From Simplicispira metamorpha (GTDB lineage Bacteria > Pseudomonadota > Gammaproteobacteria > Burkholderiales > Burkholderiaceae_C): a DNA stretch of 64,000 nucleotides. The notes under the pieces are model-generated. The model searched no databases, was not told the DNA's origin, and saw only the letters and a list, made by a program, of their open reading frames with translations. Position 1 is the first letter of the stretch. The number at the start of each line of letters is the position of its first letter. The position numbers and the translations under genes are program-made. Location: NCBI RefSeq assembly GCF_004341365.1, contig NZ_SLXH01000004.1, forward strand, positions 1-64,000, read 5' to 3'. Positions 2,008 through 22,474 of this stretch are shown here, piece after piece.

Positions 2008-3845
2008 GCTGAAACCCCGTCGCCCCCCTCGGGATGCACTTGGTACAGCTTCATGCCCCGCCCACGGATGCGTTTGAAGCGTGCCCTTTTGCCATCGGCA
2101 CCGGGCGCTGGAATGAGCCCTTGGAGCTGCAAAACATCCAGCGCGCGGGCGAAGTCGAAGCCCTTCAAAGCCTCGCGCAGGCCGTCCGCAGTGAACCAGT
2201 AAACCCGGCCTTCGTGCCCGTCCTGCCACCACCCGGCCCGGTCACGCACCATGGCTGCGCGTTGGTCGTCGTCGCTGTCAGCATCGCTGAATCGGCTGTC
2301 ACCATGGCGCTCGATGAAGCTGTGCAGGCGCTCGGCAATCTGGCCTTGCTCGGCGTTGCCCGTGGCGTTGCCGCGCAGGGTCAGCCAGGCAGCAAAGCCC
2401 ACCTCGGCGGCGCGCGTGGCCTCGCCTGGGGGCCAGCCGGTGATGCCGTAGGCGGTGGCCAACTCCCCCGCCAGCGCCAGCACGGCCAGGCGTGCAGCAG
2501 CGCGTGCCGCTTGCCCTTCACCGCCAGGCGCTTGCAGGCCGGGTAGCTGCTTGATGGCGTCCAGGGCTTCGCTGAAGTTGTCGCTGTCGCGCGTGAGCTT
2601 CTCCAGAAAGGCGCGGCCCGCATGGCCATAGTGCCGGGCGGCCTCATGTTTGAGGGCGTCGGACAGGGCGGTGCCAGTGGTGTGCTGGTGCAGGTTGTCC
2701 CATGCGCCGTACTGGCGCTGGGCCGGTATGTCCAGCAGGCGCACAGCTTGGCCAGCTTTGACGCGGTGGCCACCTTCAATCATGGTCGTGGCAATGGAGC
2801 GCTCGCCGGTCGAGAGCACGCTACTGCGCCAGCGGGTCACAGCACGGGCGCCACCGGCTCGGCCAGCGCGCTGTTTGCCGCGTCCGTTGCCCAGCATGTA
2901 AACCACTTCGCCCACGGCGCGCGGGTCACACTCGCTGATTTCGTCCAGGGCCAGCAGGCTGTCATTGAACAGCGCGGCTGCACCCTCCAGACCGTTGCTG
3001 GTGGTGCGCCAGCTTCGGCGGTAGCTCGGCCCACCCCATACGCTACAGGCCGATTCCAGCGCAGTCGTTTTGCCCGTGGAGCTGTCACCAATGAGGTGCA
3101 GTCCCCCACTTTCCATGTTGACGCGCGCCAGTACCGGCCCGGCAAAGGCGGCGCACAGCGCCAGCACCAGCAGCGGATTGCCCACGGCCAGGGCGGCGGT
3201 GCCTTGCTGCCAGCCGTGCAGTGTGCCGCGCTGGGTGTATTCGTCGGCGGCGCGCGTGTCGCTCTGGTAGGCCACGCTGGCGGCCTTGGGGCCAATGACG
3301 GTATCGGGCAGCACAAACGCCTTGAAGTCGGTACCGGCCCAGCCCGTTTGCAGCGCGCATTCAATACGGCGCTTGGGTGCCTTGTCTTGCAGGTACACGC
3401 CCAGCAGGTTGCGGCCAAAGGGGTCAATCTGCACCCCCATACCCAGCAGCACCCCGCGCAGGTCGGTGCAGTCGCCGCGCAGCATCTCCATGGGCATGGC
3501 CCATGTCACCCACTTGCCCAGCGTGGTTTGAAAGCGCAGCAAGCGGCCAAAGTTACCTTCGTGCGGGTCGTGCGTCACTGCGTCAATGTGCAGGGGGCTG
3601 CACACCCAGCGCTGCGTGAGGGTGGGCGGCGCATCTTCGCCCCGGCCCGGCTTGATGCCAAAGTGCCAAACGCCCGCGCGGTACTTGCTGGCGCCTTCTT
3701 CGGTGAACTCGTCCAGCACGACAAAGCAGGGGCGGCCCTGTTCGCCGGGGATGCGGCTTGCGGTCTTGGCGGGGGGCGGCTCCAAGGGGATGAGCGCGGC
3801 CCCTTCTCGGTCGGCGGTGGCCTGGTCGGCAGTGGTATCTAGCAT
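2004..3845 (-). CDS. DUF927 P-loop ATPase, likely replicative helicase
   Basis: The 613-residue protein has the features of DUF927 proteins of integrated elements. There is a Walker A motif, GDSSTGKTTAL, at residues 253-263 and a Walker B motif, LLALDE, at 297-302, within a RecA/AAA-like core. The N-terminal 200 residues precede it, and a C-terminal winged-helix-like region ends in HPEGGDGVSA. Such proteins usually accompany a Toprim primase and are thought to unwind DNA at the element origin. Its start overlaps the upstream primase gene by seven bases, so the two are translationally coupled. The DUF927 label and helicase role come from family knowledge; only the motifs are seen directly. Confidence 0.8.
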   Translation of the reverse strand: MLDTTADQATADREGAALIPLEPPPAKTASRIPGEQGRPCFVVLDEFTEEGASKYRAGVWHFGIKPGRGEDAPPTLTQRWVCSPLHIDAVTHDPHEGNFGRLLRFQTTLGKWVTWAMPMEMLRGDCTDLRGVLLGMGVQIDPFGRNLLGVYLQDKAPKRRIECALQTGWAGTDFKAFVLPDTVIGPKAASVAYQSDTRAADEYTQRGTLHGWQQGTAALAVGNPLLVLALCAAFAGPVLARVNMESGGLHLIGDSSTGKTTALESACSVWGGPSYRRSWRTTSNGLEGAAALFNDSLLALDEISECDPRAVGEVVYMLGNGRGKQRAGRAGGARAVTRWRSSVLSTGERSIATTMIEGGHRVKAGQAVRLLDIPAQRQYGAWDNLHQHTTGTALSDALKHEAARHYGHAGRAFLEKLTRDSDNFSEALDAIKQLPGLQAPGGEGQAARAAARLAVLALAGELATAYGITGWPPGEATRAAEVGFAAWLTLRGNATGNAEQGQIAERLHSFIERHGDSRFSDADSDDDQRAAMVRDRAGWWQDGHEGRVYWFTADGLREALKGFDFARALDVLQLQGLIPAPGADGKRARFKRIRGRGMKLYQVHPEGGDGVSA

Positions 3846-4753
3846 GGTGTGCCCTCCAGTAGTTCGGCAAAGCAGGCGCGCACGGCGCCTTGCCCGGCCA
3901 GCGCGGCCAGGTCGTTGAAGTCGGTGGCTTTGGCTGGGCGCTCGGCGGGGAACTGCGGCACCACCACCAGCCCGCCCACAGCCAGCGCGGCATGGCGGGC
4001 GGCAGTGAGGCCCGGATTGCCCTCGGTGCGCCAGTCGTCGTCAGCGGCCACCAGCAGCGCCAGCGCGGGGTACTTGCGGCGCAGGGCGCGTGCCACGGGC
4101 AGCAAGTTGCCGCTGTGAAAACACGCGGCCACAGGCAGGCCGACTGCCTCATGGATGGTGGCGGCGGTGGCGTAGCCTTCAGCCAGCACCAGCACATCGG
4201 CCAGCTTGCCCATGGCGTGGTAGCTCCCCTGCACCGCGCCACCGGGCAGAAAGCGCTTGGTGCCATCGGCTCGGATGGTTTGCAGGCTGGCCAGCACCCC
4301 GGCGGCGCTGCGCACCGGCACCAGCAGCGCGGCACCTTCCACGCGCAGACCATGGGCGCGCACGCCCTTGGCTGCAAGGTACGGGTGCTGGATGGCGGGC
4401 GCTGCGGCCTGCCAGCGTTGCATGGCGGTGTGGCTGGCCTGTTGGCGGCGACGCGCTTGTTCTGCATCACGCTGGCGCTGGGCGGCGCGCACCTGTTCGC
4501 GCTGGGCGCTGCGCTCGGCCTCGGTCAGGTCGCACTCTGGCTTGGCGCACCAGGTCGATTGCAGCCCACTGCGCCAGCAGCCAAACACACCAGCGGCCAG
4601 GCCATCGTTGTGCAGCACGTACCAAGCAGCCAGGTCGGCGTGCTTGCCTGTGGGTGAAAAGCGGTGCAGGTGGCCGTCAGCGTGCAGCGTGTCAGGTGGC
4701 TCCATGCCTGCGGCCTTGATGGCGGCGCGGAATTGGTCGAGGACGCTATTCAT
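3839..4753 (-). CDS. Toprim-domain primase
   Basis: The 304-residue protein carries a Toprim fold. The catalytic glutamate is in VLAEGYATAAT (Glu192) and the acidic DxD-type cluster is AADDDW (Asp238-240). The N-terminal part (HLHRFSPTGK, then FGCWRSGLQSTW) resembles the primase zinc-binding-like domain of mobile-element primases. A basic, Arg/Gln-rich helix lies at about residues 78-108. I chose the ATG at 4753, which gives MNSVLDQF, because the upstream extension is not protein-like. It probably primes replication of the element together with the DUF927 ATPase, whose start codon it overlaps. Confidence 0.82.
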   Translation of the reverse strand: MNSVLDQFRAAIKAAGMEPPDTLHADGHLHRFSPTGKHADLAAWYVLHNDGLAAGVFGCWRSGLQSTWCAKPECDLTEAERSAQREQVRAAQRQRDAEQARRRQQASHTAMQRWQAAAPAIQHPYLAAKGVRAHGLRVEGAALLVPVRSAAGVLASLQTIRADGTKRFLPGGAVQGSYHAMGKLADVLVLAEGYATAATIHEAVGLPVAACFHSGNLLPVARALRRKYPALALLVAADDDWRTEGNPGLTAARHAALAVGGLVVVPQFPAERPAKATDFNDLAALAGQGAVRACFAELLEGTPC

Positions 4754-4763
4754 GTTGCGGCCC

Positions 4764-4904
4764 TCAATCCACGTACAGCACGCACGCGCCGTACTTGCTT
4801 TGCAGGATGGCCTGGGCCTGCTTTGCTCTGGCACGGCAAGCGAACCAGGGCGACTGGTGCTCAATCCCGTTCTTCACGTACAAGACGCAAATGCGGGCGC
4901 TCAT
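4764..4904 (-). CDS. 46-residue hypothetical protein
   Basis: This short frame starts at an ATG that overlaps the upstream gene's stop codon (ATGA), and its own stop lies ten bases before the primase start, which argues that it is translated as part of the block. The protein contains two similar halves, each with CVLYV (CVLYVKNG near the start and CVLYVD at the end), and a basic alanine-rich helix between them. I recognise no family. Confidence 0.5.
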   Translation of the reverse strand: MSARICVLYVKNGIEHQSPWFACRARAKQAQAILQSKYGACVLYVD

Positions 4905-5620
4905 GCTGTACCGCCGTTTGCGCGCTGCGCCTTCGCTGCTTTTGCAGCCTTCATCCGCTGCACGAACGCGGCTTTGTCGGATGCTTCGCTCTCTGCGCAA
5001 TAGGCTTGGTATTGCTCGGCCCGGGCAATGCGGCCGGCCACGAAATCGGTATGCATGGCGTGCTTGGCCATGAAGGTCAAGGACTCCCTGACGACTTCCA
5101 GAAACGTCACGGCGGCACCACGGCGGCCAGTCTTGTCAAAAGACTCGTGTGTAGCCGTTATCACCTCATCAAGGATGTTGTTCAGCGGAATGTATGGCCC
5201 GTAGCCGCACTGCAACGCAGCCAGCAACTCGCCTGCACAGCGGTAGCCTGTGATGTTGCCCGATACGTAGTCCTCGGGGGGAACGTCAAAGCAGCGTTCA
5301 CCTATCCAGCCACCATTGCGGCTGATTTGTTGGGTGATGAAGGACAGTGCGCCTTGTCTGGTGCGGGTACCGTCAGGATGGCGAACAACTGGATGCACGG
5401 CATGTGCGCGCAGGCGGCCGCGCTCGCTCTGGGGAAGGTCATCAAACAGCGGGTGCCAGGCGTCGGCCTGGGTGGGCAGGTCAATGGTGCGCTGCCAGCC
5501 CTCGGGGAACTCCAGCAATGCGGTCTTGCCGTGGGGGCCGGTGCCCAGCGCCAGCAGGCGCACGGGCTTGGTTTTGTGGGTGCTGGCGTGGTGGGTAGGA
5601 GTCCAGGGTGTGGTGCTCAT
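4901..5620 (-). CDS. Hypothetical protein of the replication block
   Basis: The 239-residue soluble protein has no signal peptide and no membrane segment. Visible features are a central tract with GGWIGERCF and YVSGNITGYRCAGELL, and a charged, alanine/lysine-rich C-terminal tail (KAAKAAKAQR). Both ends are coupled by ATGA overlaps, upstream to a 77-residue ORF and downstream to the 46-residue ORF, so it belongs to the primase-helicase operon. I do not recognise its family. A role in replication or copy control of the element is only a guess from position. Confidence 0.65.
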   Translation of the reverse strand: MSTTPWTPTHHASTHKTKPVRLLALGTGPHGKTALLEFPEGWQRTIDLPTQADAWHPLFDDLPQSERGRLRAHAVHPVVRHPDGTRTRQGALSFITQQISRNGGWIGERCFDVPPEDYVSGNITGYRCAGELLAALQCGYGPYIPLNNILDEVITATHESFDKTGRRGAAVTFLEVVRESLTFMAKHAMHTDFVAGRIARAEQYQAYCAESEASDKAAFVQRMKAAKAAKAQRANGGTA

Positions 5621-5850
5621 GCTGCGGCCTCCGCTCGCTCAAACGCTGCCAGGCGGCGCAGGGCTGCCAGGGCTTGGCGCAGCTTGCGTGCCGCTTCGGT
5701 GTGACGGTGGCGGGCTGCATACCAGCGGGCCATGGCACAGGCGTTGACGACCTCGCCGTGCAGGGCTACCAGGTCGATAGTGGTGGGGGTATTGCCCGTG
5801 GGGGCGTGCGCAGACGCGGGCGCAGTGCGGCCCTGGGGGGTGTTAGCCAT
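5617..5850 (-). CDS. 77-residue hypothetical, first gene of replication block
   Basis: The gene starts at an ATG with a GGAG six bases upstream and ends in an ATGA overlap with the next gene. The first 25 residues are a Pro/Thr/Ala-rich lead, and the rest is strongly helical and basic (ACAMARWYAARHRHTEAARKLRQALAALR split over two helices). It could be a small helical DNA-binding or adaptor protein. No family is recognised. The promoter for the block should lie in the gap before it. Confidence 0.6.
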   Translation of the reverse strand: MANTPQGRTAPASAHAPTGNTPTTIDLVALHGEVVNACAMARWYAARHRHTEAARKLRQALAALRRLAAFERAEAAA

Positions 5851-6172
5851 GAATGGCTCCTTCGGAACAGGTTTGAAACCTGCCGCCCCCATCGCCAAAT
5901 GAGGGTGGCAGACCGTGCGGGGTTGGCGAACCGGCCGAAGGAACCGGCACACCCTTGCGGGTGTCCCCACACGGCCCGCCAAAAAGGAAAGCCATGTGTG
6001 CCATGCGCAGCGCATGGGCGTAAAAAAGCCGCTGTCCAAATTGGGCGCGGCTGCTGCGCCTTCGGTAATTGGGTCGCCAAACCCGTGGTGCTTTTCAGCG
6101 CCTGGGCGAATTGTGCCACGGGCAGCGCCAGCGGTGAAGGCGGGCAGCACCCCTGTTACTACAATCAGGTGC
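5851..6172. promoter_or_regulatory. Divergent intergenic region
   Basis: This 322-base gap separates the minus-strand replication block from the plus-strand BrnA-like gene and must hold both start regions. It contains short hairpins, including CACCCTTGCGGGTG near 5950. I see no convincing sigma70 promoter and no BrnT toxin gene in any frame. Confidence 0.4.
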
Positions 6173-15612: not shown

Positions 15613-15703
15613 GGCAGTTCAGCCACGATTGCTCACAAATGTAAAGACACCGTAGGGCTGTGGGATTACAGTCGCACCGATTCACCTGTTGAGGAGTGCT
15701 GAC

Positions 15704-18340
15704 ATGAATTTCCCGTCTGCGCGCAACCACCTGGCAGCCTTGCTGCTGGGCGCTGCGCTTTTAGCGCCTGCAATGGCGCAAACCGTCCTGGCGCTGCCCG
15801 CAGCCCAGGCGCCTGGTAGCGATGTACGCCAGGCGTTGACCGTGCCCCCTGGCGGCACGCTGCGCCTGGAGCGCCTGAAGCTGGACGAAGCCAGCGGCGA
15901 AGTGGCCAGCGCCGACCTGCGCCGCACCAACGCGGGCAGCGCGCCACTGCTGGTCGTGCATTCGGGCACGGAAGTGAGCACCACACGCCCCGCACCGCGC
16001 GCCCATTTCACCGGCCAGCTGGTGGGCGACCCCAAAAGCAGCGTGTTTGTCTCCATAGATGAACAGGGCGCCCTGCGCAGCATCGTGCGCCGTGGCGAAG
16101 AAGTGTTTGTCAGCGACATGCCTGCGCCCAGCACGCCGGGCGCATCGGGCACGGCCAGCCTCGCGGCCCCCGGCTTGCGCGCACGCCGCGTGGAACTCAC
16201 CGCAGACGCCCCGGCCCAGCCCTTTGTGTGTGGCGTCAATGACGAGTTCATTGAAAAGCACTACACACCGCCCTCGGCCGCCTTGCTGGAAAACCTGCGC
16301 AACAACCACCAGCGCGCCGGACTGATGGGCACGGCCTCGCAGGGCCCGCAAGCGCTGGGCGCTCAGCGGCGCGCCGACCTCATCATCGAGACCGACTACG
16401 AACTGTTCCAGCGCCTGGGCAGCAGCAGCGCAGTACATGCCTACGTGACCGATTTGCTGGGCTACGCCAGTTCGCAGTACGAGAGCGAAATCGGCGCGCG
16501 CCTGAATCTGACACAAATCAATGTGTACACCAGCAGCGCCGCTGACCCGTGGAGCAATACCATGGACACCGGTGTCTTGCTGGAAGAACTGCAAGCCTAC
16601 TGGAACGCCCCTGGCCGAAGCAGCCAAGCGCGGCACCACGTTCATTTGCTGAGCGGACGCGATACGGGCGGCGGTGTGGCTTACCTGAACACCCTCGGCA
16701 GTGCCAGCAAAACCTATGCCTACGGTGTCAGCGGCAGCATCAAGGGCAATTTTTCTGCCAGCAACCCCCAGGTCATCTGGGATTCGATGGTCGTGGCACA
16801 CGAGATCGGGCACGCTTTTGGCAGCGACCACACGCACAACTACGACGCCCCATCCATTGGCTCCAACCAAGGCGGCGCTATCGATTGCTGCGTCTCCGAA
16901 GATGGTTCGCAATGCATAACACAGCTCGGGGGCTCAGGCCAGACTGGTGTATTACCGGGTATCAACTCTGTCACTGGCGGCATAGCAGGCACCGGCGCGG
17001 GCACCATCATGAGCTACTGCCACTTCCCCAATGGCAGTATGGCCGACATCAGCTTCAACTTCGGCACCAACCACACCCGGGGCGTCAACCCCTGGCGCGT
17101 GGCCAGCGTGCTACAAAGCAGTGCCCAAACCAACCTGCCACTGGACAACGTGGTGCAGAACTACACCCTGTCCGTCTCGCGCCAAGGCACCGGCAGCGGC
17201 ACCGTGACCAGCGCACCGGCAGGCATCAACTGCGGCAACGCATGCTCGTACAGCTTTGTGGCTGGGGCGTCCGTTACTTTGACCGCACAGCCTGCATCGG
17301 GCAGCAACTTCACCGGCTGGAGCGGTGCTTGCACCGGCACCGGCAGCTGCACAGTCAGCATGGACAGTGCCCGCAGCGTCACCGCCAGCTTCACCGCAGC
17401 AGCTACCACGCGCCTGGTCACGCTCACCAAGTCGGGTGCGGGCACCGGCAGCGTCACCAGCAATCCCAGCGGGTTGAGCTGCGCAGCAGGTTGCACCAGC
17501 GCATCGGCCAGCTTTACCAGTACCAGCGCTGTGACGCTGACAGCCCTGGCCTCTAGCGGCAGCACCTTTGCAGGCTGGGGCGGCGCATGCAGCGGCACCA
17601 GCAACTGCACCATTGCCGCAGGCAGCAGCAGCACCAGCGTGACGGCCAGCTTCAGCACTGGCAGCGGTGGTGGGCCACTGGCCGACCCGGTGGTCTTTGT
17701 CACGCAGCAGTACGTGGACTTTCTGCGCCGCACACCGGACAGCGCTGGTCTGAACTACTGGGTAGGCCAACTCAACGCGGGCACGTCCTCACGCGCCGAG
17801 CTGATCGAGTCGCTGATGTACTCGGGTGAATTCCGTGGCCGCTTCGGCCCGCTGGTGCGCCTGTATACCGCCTACTTCCAGCGGCTGCCCGACTATGCCG
17901 GCCTGATGTACTGGTTTGACGCCATGTACCCCAGCAGCGGCACCGGCAACAGCATCACGCAAGTCTCTGATGCTTTTGCGCAATCCAGCGAGTTTGTCAA
18001 CACCTACGGCCCCTTGGACAACGCAGGCTTTATCAACCGTGTGTACCAAAACGTGTTGGGCCGCAGCCCCGACGCCGCAGGCCAGGCTTACTGGCTGGCA
18101 CAGCTCAACGGCGGTATGCCGCGCGGCCAGGTGATGCTCGGCTTCTCGGAATCGACTGAAAACCAGAATGCCAGCGCCAATTCCCTGCTCATCACCATGG
18201 GCTATGTGGGTATGCTGCGTCGCACGCCCGATCCAGCAGGCCACGCCTGGTGGCTGGCCGAGGTGAACGCCGGACGCGCCAGCGTACTGGGCCTCATCAA
18301 CGGCTTCCTCAGCTCCTCCGAGTACGCTGCCCGCTTCTGA
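15704..18340 (+). CDS. Secreted reprolysin-like metalloprotease with DUF4214 tail
   Basis: The 878-residue protein starts with a signal peptide (LAALLLGAALLAPAMAQ). A propeptide-like region leads to a zinc metalloprotease domain with HEIGHAFGSDH at residues 366-376 and the met-turn GTIMSYCH near 436, typical of M12-like metzincins. Two beta repeats follow, with GWSGACTGTGSCTV and GWGGACSGTSNCTI. The tail has about three DUF4214 units (FVTQQYVDFLRRTPDSAGL and similar) and ends SSSEYAARF. A GAGGAG ribosome binding site supports the start at 15704. The repeats and tail are homologous to those of the next gene. It is probably exported by Sec and type II secretion. Confidence 0.88.
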   Translation: MNFPSARNHLAALLLGAALLAPAMAQTVLALPAAQAPGSDVRQALTVPPGGTLRLERLKLDEASGEVASADLRRTNAGSAPLLVVHSGTEVSTTRPAPRAHFTGQLVGDPKSSVFVSIDEQGALRSIVRRGEEVFVSDMPAPSTPGASGTASLAAPGLRARRVELTADAPAQPFVCGVNDEFIEKHYTPPSAALLENLRNNHQRAGLMGTASQGPQALGAQRRADLIIETDYELFQRLGSSSAVHAYVTDLLGYASSQYESEIGARLNLTQINVYTSSAADPWSNTMDTGVLLEELQAYWNAPGRSSQARHHVHLLSGRDTGGGVAYLNTLGSASKTYAYGVSGSIKGNFSASNPQVIWDSMVVAHEIGHAFGSDHTHNYDAPSIGSNQGGAIDCCVSEDGSQCITQLGGSGQTGVLPGINSVTGGIAGTGAGTIMSYCHFPNGSMADISFNFGTNHTRGVNPWRVASVLQSSAQTNLPLDNVVQNYTLSVSRQGTGSGTVTSAPAGINCGNACSYSFVAGASVTLTAQPASGSNFTGWSGACTGTGSCTVSMDSARSVTASFTAAATTRLVTLTKSGAGTGSVTSNPSGLSCAAGCTSASASFTSTSAVTLTALASSGSTFAGWGGACSGTSNCTIAAGSSSTSVTASFSTGSGGGPLADPVVFVTQQYVDFLRRTPDSAGLNYWVGQLNAGTSSRAELIESLMYSGEFRGRFGPLVRLYTAYFQRLPDYAGLMYWFDAMYPSSGTGNSITQVSDAFAQSSEFVNTYGPLDNAGFINRVYQNVLGRSPDAAGQAYWLAQLNGGMPRGQVMLGFSESTENQNASANSLLITMGYVGMLRRTPDPAGHAWWLAEVNAGRASVLGLINGFLSSSEYAARF

Positions 18341-18436: not shown

Positions 18437-21400
18437 ATGAGCAATGTATGGAAGATTTTTAACGGCATACGCCGCACCCTTGCGGTGTCGATAGCGGGCC
18501 TGGCCTTGTCGGCTGCCAGCGCCAGCGCAGCAGACCGGGTACTGCTGGGCGCGCCCGCAGGCGTAGGGCAAGCAGCCCTGTCATCGGCAACGCTGCGCGC
18601 TGCACTGCAAGGCTTGGCGGCCACGGCACAAGAGAGAGGCTCGGTGCGCGTGATTGTGGGCGTTCGCGCTGCGTTCGCCCCTGAAGGCCAGCTGGCTGCC
18701 GCCACGGCAGCCCTGCAACGCAATGAAATCGCCAGTGCGCAATTGAGCGTCCTGTCGCGCCTGCCCCTGGCCACCCAGAAAAGCAGCACGGTGCGGCGTT
18801 TTGCCAGCATCCCGTACCTGGCCATGTCCGTGACAGCCCAGGAGCTGAAAACGCTGGAGCAAATGCCCGAAGTCACCTCCATCCAGGAAGACAAGGCAGT
18901 GCCCGCCACGCTAGCCTACAGCGTGCCCTTTATTGGTGGCACCACGGCCTGGGGGAGCGGCTACACCGGGGCCGGGCAAGCGGTGGCGGTGCTCGATACC
19001 GGGGTGGACAAAGTACACCCGCTGCTCAAAGACAAAGTGATTGCAGAGGCCTGCTACTCCACCACGGACAGCGGCTATGGTGTGACTTCCGTCTGCCCTG
19101 GTGGAGTAGGTGCATCGACGGCTCCAGGCTCTGGCGTGCCTTGCACCGGTGTTGAAGCCTGCTCACATGGCACCCATGTGGCAGGCATCGTGGCAGGCAA
19201 CGGCGGATCCAACAGCGCCCCTGCCGGTGTCGCCAAAGGCGCAGGCATCATTGCCATGCAGGTGTTTTCCAAGTTCAGCACGGAAGATGTCTGTGGCGTT
19301 GGCCGGGCCCCCTGCGCACTCACGCTCAACTCTGACCAGATCATGGCCCTGGAGCAGGTCTATACCTGGCGCAATGTCCATCCGATTGCGGCGGTCAACA
19401 TGAGCCTGGGCGGTGGTCGTTATTACGACCAGGCCAGTTGCGATGCGGACAACGCATCAGTCAAAGCAGCCATTGACAACCTGCGCACCGTCGGCATTGC
19501 CACCATCATCTCTTCGGGCAATGACGGTTACAACAACTCCATGGGCGCACCAGGCTGCATCTCCAGCGCCATCAGCGTGGGCTCCACCCACGTCCAGGCC
19601 GGTTATCCCAACAATTGCGACGGCAACAACCTGGGCACCTCTAGCCCGGACGCCATTTCGTGCTTCTCCAACTCGGTATCGTTCCTGAACCTGCTGGCGC
19701 CCGGCTCCAACATCAGCTCTTCGGTACCGGGCAGCAAATACGACAGCTACTCCGGTACCTCCATGGCGGCACCCCACGCAGCGGGCGCCTGGGCCATCCT
19801 GAAGCAGAAGAAACCCACAGCCACGGTCAATGAAGTGCTCAATGCCTTCGTCACGACAGGCCAAGCGGTGACCGACCCCCGCAACGCCATCACCAAGCCA
19901 CGCATCCAGGTGGCGCAGGCCCTGAACAGCATCAACGCCAGCGGCTACACCCTGTCCGTCACCAAAACGGGCACCGGCACCGTCACCAGTTCGCCCGCAG
20001 GCATTGATTGCGGCGCCACCTGCTCCGCCAATTTCAGCGCCAACAGCAGCGTGACCCTGACAGCGATAGCCTCTGGCAGCAACACCTTTATCGACTGGAG
20101 CGGCGCCTGCACAGGCGCCACCACCACCTGCACCGTCAGCATGAACGCAGCGCGCAGCGTGACTGCCAACTTCACCGCAGCCGCCAGTACGCGCTTGGTT
20201 GCGCTGAGCAAGTCGGGCCAGGGCAGTGTGGTCAGCACCCCCAGCGGCATCTACTGCGACACCTCTTGCACCAGCGCCTCCTACAGCTTTTCTTCCAGCA
20301 GTGGCATCGTTTTGACGGCCACCCCGGCAACGGGCAGCAGCTTTGCGGGCTGGAGCGGCGCCTGTAGCGGCACGGGCAATTGCAGTATCAGCGCTGGCAC
20401 AGACGCGGCCAATGTCACGGCCATGTTCACCAGCAGCAGCAGCGGTGACGGGACCATCTCCCTCCTGGAGCGAACCAATCTTGGCGGCAGCGCCAGCACC
20501 AACGCCAGCTTCTCAGTGCAAGTGCCTCCTGGAGCCACTAACCTGGCGATCACCACCGCTGGCGGCATGGGCGATGTGGACTTGTACGTCAAAGCAGGCG
20601 CGTTACCGACCCTGCAATCGCACGACTGCGCATCGCAAAACTCCGGCAACACAGAAAGCTGTGGCGTGGCAACCCCCCAGCCGGGCGCCTACTACATCCT
20701 GCTCAATGGCTACGAAGCCTATAGCGGCGTCACGCTGCGCGTCACCTACCGCCTGCCCAGCGCCAAAGTCACCTTGAACGTGGCCAAAACCGGCACCGGC
20801 CAAGGCACTGTGCTGTCTGCATCAAGCACCTCAGCGCAAATGCCCGCCACTGGCAACTTGGCTGGCCCTACCATCGTGGGCGGTCAGCCTGCCCAGTCTG
20901 GCGCCTGGCCTTGGCAAGTACGCCTGGCCATCACCACCCAAGAAGGCACCTTCCTGTGCGGTGGCTCGTTGGTGTCTGACCAGTGGGTGCTGACAGCAGC
21001 GCACTGCATTGACAACGCAGGCAGCACCGTCAGTCCCGCCAATGTCACCGTGCGCGCCGGATCACTGCAAAGAGACAGCGGCGGCGTGGTGGTGGGCGTA
21101 AGCCGCATCATCAAGCACCACGCCTACGAACCTGCAACCACAGACAACGACATTGCACTGCTGCGCCTGTCCAGCCCGCTGCCATTGTCTAGCACCATCA
21201 ACGTGGTGGCACCGCTGTCTGCATCGCAAGAAAACCAACTGGCTGCCAGCAACACCCTGGCCACTGTCACTGGCTGGGGCACCACCAGCCCCGGCGGTGA
21301 TTCCTCGACCACTTTGCTGCAAACCCAAGTACCTTTGCTGAGCAGCAGCGACTGCGCAGCCACATCGGCGTATGGCAGCAGCAGACTGTCGAGCAACATG

Positions 21401-22474
21401 ATCTGCGCTGGCTACCCATCGGGTGGCAAAGACTCATGCCAAGGCGATAGCGGCGGCCCCCTGGTGGTGCCCAACGGCCAGGGCGGACATGTTCTGGCGG
21501 GTATCGTGAGCTGGGGTGAGAGCTGCGCCGCACCCAACTACCCCGGTGTTTACACCCGGGTGGCCAACTACCAGCCCTGGCTGCAAACGCATACCCAACT
21601 GGCGCTGGGCGCACCGCTCCTCAACTGCGGCAGCGCCTGCTCGGCCAGCGTGGATGCCAACACCACCATCACCCTGCGCGCACTGGCCAGCAACGGCAGC
21701 AACTTTGTTGGCTGGAGCGGCGCTTGCAGCGGCACAGCCGACACCTGCACCGTGCTGCTGGACAACGCCCGCAGCGTGACAGCCAACTTCAGTGCCAACG
21801 GCTTCAACCCGCTGCCTGACCCCGTGGACTTTGTCACCCAGCAGTACCGAGACTTTCTGGGCCGTACCCCCGACACCGCAGGCCTGGCCTACTGGGTCAA
21901 CCAGCTCAAAACCGGCGCAACCACACGGGCGCAGTTGGTGGAAGCATTCATGCAGGAAAGCGTATTCCGGGGCCGTCTTGACCCCATCGTGCGCCTGTAC
22001 ACCGCCTACTTCAAACGCCTGCCCGACTACCCGGGTCTGATGTTCTGGCTCAACACCATGCACCCTGCCACGGGTACGGGCCAAAGCTTGGTACAAGTGT
22101 CTGAGGCATTCGCCCAATCGGGCGAGTTTGTCGCCACCTACGGCCCACTCAACAACACGTCCTTCATCACCCGCGTGTACCAAAACGTGCTGGGCCGCGA
22201 CCCCGAGGCCGAGGGCTACGCCTACTGGATGAAGCGCCTGGCCGAGGGCATGCCACGCGGCGAAGTCATGCTGGCCTTCTCGGAATCGGCCGAGAACCAA
22301 AGCGCCACCGCCAGCACGCAGTTCGACACCGTGCTGTACGTGGGCATGTTCAAGCGCGTACCCAACGCCACCGAACACGCCCAGTGGCTTGCCGATGTGC
22401 AAGCCGGACGTGCCAACGTACTCAACCTGATCGACAGTCTGTTGCAATCGTCAGAGTACGCCGCCCGCTTCTGA
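18437..22474 (+). CDS. Giant secreted protease: subtilisin plus trypsin, DUF4214 tail
   Basis: The 1345-residue protein has a signal peptide ending near ASASA, an I9-like propeptide, and an S8 subtilisin domain with Asp187 (VLDTGVD), His244 (SHGTHVAG), Asn362 and Ser442 (GTSMAAP). Next are two beta repeats (about 503-665), a PPC-like domain (about 675-772), and an S1 trypsin domain from IVGG at 813 with His856, Asp905 and Ser1005. Asp999, six before the serine, predicts cleavage after Arg/Lys. The trypsin is flanked by two halves of a third beta repeat, so it looks inserted. A DUF4214 tail ends QSSEYAARF. AAGAAGGA precedes the ATG. Confidence 0.9.
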   Translation: MSNVWKIFNGIRRTLAVSIAGLALSAASASAADRVLLGAPAGVGQAALSSATLRAALQGLAATAQERGSVRVIVGVRAAFAPEGQLAAATAALQRNEIASAQLSVLSRLPLATQKSSTVRRFASIPYLAMSVTAQELKTLEQMPEVTSIQEDKAVPATLAYSVPFIGGTTAWGSGYTGAGQAVAVLDTGVDKVHPLLKDKVIAEACYSTTDSGYGVTSVCPGGVGASTAPGSGVPCTGVEACSHGTHVAGIVAGNGGSNSAPAGVAKGAGIIAMQVFSKFSTEDVCGVGRAPCALTLNSDQIMALEQVYTWRNVHPIAAVNMSLGGGRYYDQASCDADNASVKAAIDNLRTVGIATIISSGNDGYNNSMGAPGCISSAISVGSTHVQAGYPNNCDGNNLGTSSPDAISCFSNSVSFLNLLAPGSNISSSVPGSKYDSYSGTSMAAPHAAGAWAILKQKKPTATVNEVLNAFVTTGQAVTDPRNAITKPRIQVAQALNSINASGYTLSVTKTGTGTVTSSPAGIDCGATCSANFSANSSVTLTAIASGSNTFIDWSGACTGATTTCTVSMNAARSVTANFTAAASTRLVALSKSGQGSVVSTPSGIYCDTSCTSASYSFSSSSGIVLTATPATGSSFAGWSGACSGTGNCSISAGTDAANVTAMFTSSSSGDGTISLLERTNLGGSASTNASFSVQVPPGATNLAITTAGGMGDVDLYVKAGALPTLQSHDCASQNSGNTESCGVATPQPGAYYILLNGYEAYSGVTLRVTYRLPSAKVTLNVAKTGTGQGTVLSASSTSAQMPATGNLAGPTIVGGQPAQSGAWPWQVRLAITTQEGTFLCGGSLVSDQWVLTAAHCIDNAGSTVSPANVTVRAGSLQRDSGGVVVGVSRIIKHHAYEPATTDNDIALLRLSSPLPLSSTINVVAPLSASQENQLAASNTLATVTGWGTTSPGGDSSTTLLQTQVPLLSSSDCAATSAYGSSRLSSNMICAGYPSGGKDSCQGDSGGPLVVPNGQGGHVLAGIVSWGESCAAPNYPGVYTRVANYQPWLQTHTQLALGAPLLNCGSACSASVDANTTITLRALASNGSNFVGWSGACSGTADTCTVLLDNARSVTANFSANGFNPLPDPVDFVTQQYRDFLGRTPDTAGLAYWVNQLKTGATTRAQLVEAFMQESVFRGRLDPIVRLYTAYFKRLPDYPGLMFWLNTMHPATGTGQSLVQVSEAFAQSGEFVATYGPLNNTSFITRVYQNVLGRDPEAEGYAYWMKRLAEGMPRGEVMLAFSESAENQSATASTQFDTVLYVGMFKRVPNATEHAQWLADVQAGRANVLNLIDSLLQSSEYAARF

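Follow-up and report, generated by a model that had tools for sequence, protein, structure and literature searches.

A complete trypsin within an InlB-type repeat of a subtilisin-family protein from Simplicispira metamorpha

We analysed a window of 64,000 nucleotides from Simplicispira metamorpha (contig NZ_SLXH01000004.1, positions 1 to 64,000), in which the open reading frame (ORF) at 18437-22474 on the forward strand encodes a protein of 1345 amino acids. Along this protein a subtilisin (S8) domain is followed by two intact InlB-type repeats, a PPC domain, a third repeat and a DUF4214 tail and, as read from the sequence, a complete trypsin interrupts the third InlB-type repeat. We conclude that this nested arrangement is real, that it is conserved in a small clade and that it is unusual. 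We regard the product as a probable secreted dual protease: its nested trypsin zymogen would be cut in a flexible linker, and the split repeat would keep the resulting chains together.

The interrupted third repeat

A Pfam scan assigned residues 178-476 to Peptidase_S8, 690-757 to PPC and 813-1049 to Trypsin, along with three matches to Flg_new_2, a divergent InlB B-repeat (PF18998), and three to DUF4214. The S8 profile (PF00082) scored 112.2 bits against a cut-off of 21.8, with Asp187, His244 and Ser442 present, and the S1A profile (PF00089) scored 228.7 bits against a cut-off of 20.6 over positions 1-220 of 220. A preliminary description of this DNA, made from the sequence alone, had placed a complete triad in each protease domain, and when the residues were checked both the subtilisin triad and the trypsin triad (His856, Asp905 and Ser1005) stood where it had put them; Asp999 and six cysteines of the trypsin were also confirmed. 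Asp999, six residues before the active-site serine, we take to be the equivalent of Asp189 (chymotrypsin numbering), the trypsin-specificity residue. Six cysteines is presumably the number expected for the domain's own three bridges, so none would be spare to bridge the trypsin to the preceding chain.

The Pfam match to the third repeat covered profile positions 15-72 of 73 only, from residue 1068 onwards. We describe the repeat with a hidden Markov model (HMM) of 76 positions. It was trained on 30 intact repeats from the window and from relatives, one row derived from a composite protein (one that carries the nested trypsin) having been taken out beforehand; ORF numbering in this search equals protein numbering plus 32 for the window protein. 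Immediately ahead of the trypsin the third repeat matches positions 2-17, and immediately behind it positions 19-75, so that this copy of PF18998 is not a continuous repeat of about 75 residues but breaks off after position 17 and restarts at 19. The other composites come from S. psychrophila DSM 11588 (L032), two Giesbergeria metagenome-assembled genomes (MAGs; L031 and L033) and a Burkholderiaceae MAG (L034). Their N and C halves match positions 2-16 and 19-76 in L031, 2-19 and 19-75 in L032, 1-15 and 19-75 in L033, and 1-17 and 5-76 in L034, the last of these matches extending into a longer linker after the trypsin. The trypsin breaks the repeat at one identical place in all five composite loci, and in all five both halves retain the residues conserved in the repeat.

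The N half of the window protein scored only 2.2 bits on its own (independent E-value, iE, 0.14). As a control, every 11-residue window of each composite was scored with a matrix derived from the intact repeats. Among all windows of each protein, the core of the N half ranked second in the S. metamorpha protein and in L031, first in L032 and third in L034; in each of these full-length composites the rest of the top three was made up of the windows at which the two intact repeats begin. L033 is a fragment without an intact repeat, and there the N-half core ranked first. An origin of the break in chance, or in an assembly or sequencing error, was ruled out, as the interrupted repeat is common to five genomes. 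The claim of the preliminary description that a whole S1 protease sits within one beta repeat, whose two flanks together make up one intact copy, is supported by the sequences, and none of the five composites has independent repeats on both sides of the trypsin.

We also examined predicted structures. The best of five AlphaFold models of intact repeat 1 had a mean predicted local distance difference test score (pLDDT) of 80.9 (the others ranged from 65 to 39) and contained seven strands, at residues 6-13, 16-21, 30-35, 39-47, 51-58, 66-71 and 75-83. The break maps to about residues 22-24 of this model, between strands 2 and 3. A model of 361 residues of the composite was made from an alignment of 11 rows, in which the C half had six extra rows and the N half none. 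Its long stretches with pLDDT above 50, at model residues 9-28 and 295-355, correspond to protein residues 776-795 and 1062-1122, that is, to both half-repeats (block means of 79 and 63 in the N half and of 62, 75, 83, 76, 82 and 57 in the C half), and two short stretches (162-171 and 201-208) lie within the trypsin. Strands were predicted at 10-19 and 23-31 before the trypsin and at 301-306, 309-317, 322-328, 336-341 and 345-352 after it, giving the same two plus five as in the intact repeat. Placement of the flanks in separate domains, which would have counted against the preliminary description, was therefore not seen; however, the model leaves contact between the halves unproven and the trypsin unfolded. 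A Foldseek search with the composite model returned trypsin-fold chains at TM-scores of 0.2-0.4 only, to which we give no weight, and a search with the intact repeat returned an adhesion exoprotein domain (2kyw, E 0.05), which is suggestive only. By these models the insertion point is probably the loop that leads from strand 2 of the InlB-type repeat to strand 3.

An uninterrupted version of the repeat, which the preliminary description had proposed to look for among homologues, exists in an M12B metalloprotease paralogue of another genome (L042, in G004). This protein has four repeats, a PPC domain, an intact repeat at 957-1031 directly after it, another repeat and a second PPC domain, and the third repeat of the window protein occupies the same place after PPC. 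L042 is a paralogue and not a direct ancestor. The C half in the window protein is of the short form that is without a three-residue insert, like the first repeats. The L042 gene itself (2440-6114, reverse strand) encodes six InlB-type repeats and two PPC domains in all, which indicates that these modules duplicate freely; repeat number across these genes is 2 to 6. The features of the window protein and its neighbour are collected in Table 1.

Table 1. Features of the composite protease gene and the adjoining gene in the window.
Feature	Coordinates	Strand	Basis
Probable signal peptide (residues 1-32)	18437..18532	+	Sequence: basic start, hydrophobic stretch, ASASA before mature part
Possible inhibitor I9-like propeptide of subtilisin (residues 113-155), weak	18773..18901	+	Pfam PF05922 E 0.11, below cut-off
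Subtilisin (S8) domain, Asp187 His244 Ser442	18968..19864	+	Pfam PF00082 E 3.9e-32
Intact InlB-type repeat 1 (residues 504-580)	19946..20176	+	Pfam PF18998; repeat HMM 94 bits
Intact InlB-type repeat 2 (residues 587-665)	20195..20431	+	Repeat HMM 85 bits
PPC domain (residues 690-757)	20504..20707	+	Pfam PF04151 E 6.3e-15
Third-repeat N half (residues 776-796), strands 1 and 2	20762..20824	+	Repeat HMM positions 2-17, model strands
Flexible S/T/A/G/P-rich linker ending PT/IVGG, presumed activation site 812/813	20825..20872	+	Composite comparison
Complete trypsin (S1A), residues 813-1056	20873..21604	+	Pfam PF00089 E 9.8e-68, checked residues
Third-repeat C half (residues 1059-1121), strands 3 to 7	21611..21799	+	Repeat HMM positions 19-75, 66 bits
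DUF4214 tail, three stretches	21821..22471	+	Pfam PF13946 E 5.2e-42
Neighbouring paralogue: M12B (reprolysin-like) metalloprotease with 2 repeats and DUF4214 tail, without trypsin	15689..18340	+	Pfam PF13688 E 1.8e-22, PF18998, PF13946

Distribution, selection and exchange of the catalytic head

The nested region was found in five of 26 genomes searched for the genus (Simplicispira/Giesbergeria type), namely G000 (the window), G005, G008, G009 and G023, and a scan of the genome_contigs collection gave five loci, four of them composite. In G008 the gene spans two contig ends, with the head on L013/L052 and the tail on L033, and four neighbours of the head match S. psychrophila neighbours at 63-84% identity. 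We infer that head and tail belong to one gene, and that the head of L033 would then be a subtilisin.

Wider searches with the nested region covered 399 genomes of the family, 399 of the order, 369 of the class and 349 of the phylum, as overlapping samples of incompletely represented groups, the E cut-off ranging from 1e-30 to 1e-20. Apart from the window and G023, the searches returned 4, 2, 49 and 14 further places, respectively, and no nested trypsin was found among those whose sequence was read or HMM-scanned (4/4 in the family, 2/2 in the order, 28/49 in the class and 12/14 in the phylum). The best repeat-HMM iE was 0.78 in 31 ORFs picked by an active-site-like motif, and 1.3 when ORFs from another 14 regions were scanned. 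In a plasmid collection 401 records matched, none of them covering 80% of the protein, and the 20 matches listed stop before the trypsin.

The trypsin is strongly conserved. Its ratio of nonsynonymous to synonymous change (omega, calculated with YN00) was 0.098 against L032, 0.097 against L034, 0.069 against L031 and 0.077 against L033, the lowest of the computable segments in each comparison; against L032 the S8 domain gave 0.225, repeats 1-2 gave 0.282 and PPC gave 0.252, and the C half gave 0.086 against L031, the sole computable pair, all of these values being rough because synonymous divergence (dS) was near or above 1.

One composite has a different catalytic head. L031 (3129-7052) begins with an M12B metalloprotease (Pfam PF13688, E 1.5e-22; HEIGHAFGSTH) that is 76% identical over the catalytic part to the M12B gene adjacent to the S8 gene in the window, and its trypsin and C half are 82% and 79% identical to those of the window protein. 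The first repeat of L031 is also closer to the M12B paralogue of the window (67%) than to the S8 gene (59%), and its DUF4214 tail is unlike either kind (22-27% identity). The genome that carries L031 (G023) gave no match to the window subtilisin at E 1e-20, and its single M12B head is the fused one, whereas G000, G005, G008 and G009 each have both heads. A neighbour of the kind seen in the window is the likely partner in the head swap. In the window 96 bases separate the end of the M12B gene from the ATG of the S8 gene, which has the same orientation, so the L031 fusion could have arisen if a deletion had joined a repeat of one such gene to a repeat of the next. In G009 the two genes also lie side by side but in the opposite order to the window, the M12B gene there (7251-10214 of L034) having the same repeat and DUF4214 modules.

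In a tree of the trypsins, whose rows differ at their ends by one to a few residues, subtilisin-headed L034 fell outside a group of L031 and the rest, with support (91/93 and 94/91) below the program's star. This branching order suggests that the subtilisin head is probably older than the M12B head. The M12B paralogues with repeats in the same genus share the kinds of tail module with the window protein (PPC and DUF4214 in some) and differ from it in the catalytic head; L031 carries the nested trypsin, and no trypsin was seen in the seven others examined, one of which (L045) is truncated where its contig stops. The exchange of head enzymes points to the nested trypsin being an independent unit. 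The DUF4214 tail is common to several large proteins of the S. metamorpha genome, as frames of 2239 and 2298 amino acids on contigs C51 and C1 (L029 and L030) carry DUF4214-like stretches with about 40% identity to it.

Activation of the nested trypsin and the role of the split repeat

S1A proteases need a freed N-terminus, and usually lie at a chain end or behind a removable propeptide. In all five composites the IVGG motif, the triad, the Asp189 equivalent and the six cysteines are present, and a linker of 17-21 residues and variable sequence lies between the GTV strand and IVGG. The join after the trypsin is short and nearly constant in four of the five, and is five residues longer in L034. 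Residues P4-P1 before IVGG are AGPT, SGPT, VSPS and SAPQ in the proteins with a subtilisin head (counting L033, whose head is deduced as above) and VDAR in the protein with the M12B head. Since T, S and Q are not residues behind which a trypsin cleaves, the subtilisin-headed forms would need another protease for activation, and M12B-headed L031 could activate itself since an arginine precedes its IVGG.

In the explanation that we favour, a trypsin zymogen, together with a propeptide-like linker that belongs to it, would have entered an InlB-type repeat between its second and third strands, leaving the N end of the trypsin on a flexible tether and its C end fixed to strand 3 with hardly any linker. 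The variable front linker and the short rear join would fit an N end that is cut and swings into place and a C end that stays anchored. After export, for which a type II secretion system (T2SS) should be available as the genome has two GspD matches over the cut-off, a protease would cut before Ile813 and the new N-terminus would enter the trypsin activation pocket. The chain would now be in two pieces. As the trypsin has no extra cysteine for a bridge, it would be the pairing of the half-repeats that keeps the subtilisin and trypsin chains attached to each other. The subtilisin-headed forms would be activated by a non-trypsin protease, which may be the subtilisin, acting in cis or in trans, or some other secreted enzyme, and the dual enzyme may degrade extracellular protein with complementary specificities, one broad and one for Lys/Arg. 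Only tentatively would we go further and see in the repeat a built-in clasp, such that activation cuts the host domain, strand complementation between the half-repeats replaces the disulphide of other activated S1 proteases, and PPC with the clasped trypsin moves as a cassette between heads (subtilisin in four genomes, M12B in one).

Several points weigh against this explanation. The halves of L034 do not meet cleanly, as its C-half match enters the linker, and the N half, at only about 17 residues, is weak on its own throughout (2.2-4.9 bits, iE 0.02-0.14). The trypsin was unfolded in the composite model (mean pLDDT 41.5), and the contact and geometry of the half-repeats lie outside that model's reach. 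The secretion route, the cleavage and the two-chain state are inferences. Finally, non-basic activation sites also occur in solo trypsins that have no subtilisin in the chain (L019 and three of four family loci), so such sites may be ancestral.

The split repeat might instead be a tolerated accident of insertion, with the halves parting or the repeat being degraded, so that the trypsin and tail are freed once activation has occurred. The S/T-rich linker does resemble an ordinary protease propeptide, solo trypsins of the same kind exist (L019, 54% identity), and the maturation of proteases commonly strips off repeats and PPC domains. We nevertheless think an accident unlikely, given that the conserved repeat residues are kept in both halves of all five composites, that the C half shows an omega of 0.09 in its one computable comparison, and that, outside L034, the join behind the trypsin is short and hardly varies. 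Far less probable still is that no insertion took place and that the flanks are remnants of different repeats, left by recombination and not folding together. Repeats do recombine readily (2 to 6 copies), heads and tails have been swapped, and the C-half match of L034 overlaps the N-half positions, though by way of its longer linker; but the window halves adjoin at positions 17/19 without overlap or a missing strand, the junctions in L031, L032 and L033 lie at 16/19, 19/19 and 15/19, and both flanks were modelled with pLDDT mostly of 60-80 and with the expected strands.

The preliminary description had also suggested that the subtilisin in the same chain activates the trypsin. As an obligatory rule this was rejected, since L031 has an M12B head and its genome no match to the window subtilisin at the threshold used; solo L019, from the same genus, likewise has PQ/IVGG and no subtilisin in its chain. 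In the subtilisin-headed proteins, with T, T, S and Q before IVGG, it is a reasonable candidate. That it should be a dedicated activator we find possible but somewhat doubtful. The P1 residue is non-basic in all four subtilisin-headed composites and arginine in the M12B-headed one, and R or K precedes IVGG in 12 of the 14 solo trypsins read among the class loci, so that outside the family a basic residue is the more usual one at this position. However, the contrast between heads rests on one M12B-headed case, the residue before IVGG in the four family loci is K, E, L and Q, and the cut could also be made in trans, by a free subtilisin or by the M12B enzyme encoded next to the S8 gene.

Comparison with known systems

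No title or opening of an abstract that we met in searches of open-licence PubMed Central papers described this protein or its nested arrangement, and the closest comparisons are with proteins that share one of its traits. Like the window protein, PA-domain-containing proteases are secreted enzymes with one domain nested in another. In three distant relatives (L107:1098-2843 and L109:1424-2857 on the reverse strand, and L102:848-3076 on the forward strand) a PA domain (PF02225) lies within a trypsin. It follows the IIGG/IVGG...WPYM start, which was read directly in L107 and L109, and precedes the first cysteine strand, the Trypsin profile restarting at position 22-24. In these proteins the protease is the host and the guest is non-catalytic, whereas in the window protein the protease is the guest.

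VesB of Vibrio cholerae is an S1A zymogen with a His-Asp-Ser triad that is cleaved before an Ile and is a T2SS substrate; behind a signal peptide and a short propeptide it has its protease domain, then an Ig-like domain and GlyGly-CTERM. Its cleavage at Arg32-Ile33 appears to be its own work and probably takes place once the outer membrane has been crossed (PMC6219818). The triad and the cleavage before Ile, which is presumed in our case, are common to both proteins; in contrast to VesB as described there, the window trypsin is internal, lying between the halves of another domain, and has Thr before the Ile. Human polyserases 1-3 have several serine protease domains per chain, which are kept in the chain in polyserase-2 and -3 (PMC1435904). 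Those are tandem S1 domains of one family, whereas the window protein combines one S8 with one S1 domain and has the S1 nested in a repeat.

We conclude that multi-protease chains and domain insertion are already known, and that what is unusual is an S1A zymogen in the role of guest, lodged in a beta repeat of a protease that belongs to a different family. With an S1A domain nested in this way activation must cut the host domain. These proteins therefore offer a clean natural case in which to ask whether two enzyme chains can be kept joined by a split beta domain, and protein engineers could take them as a ready template.

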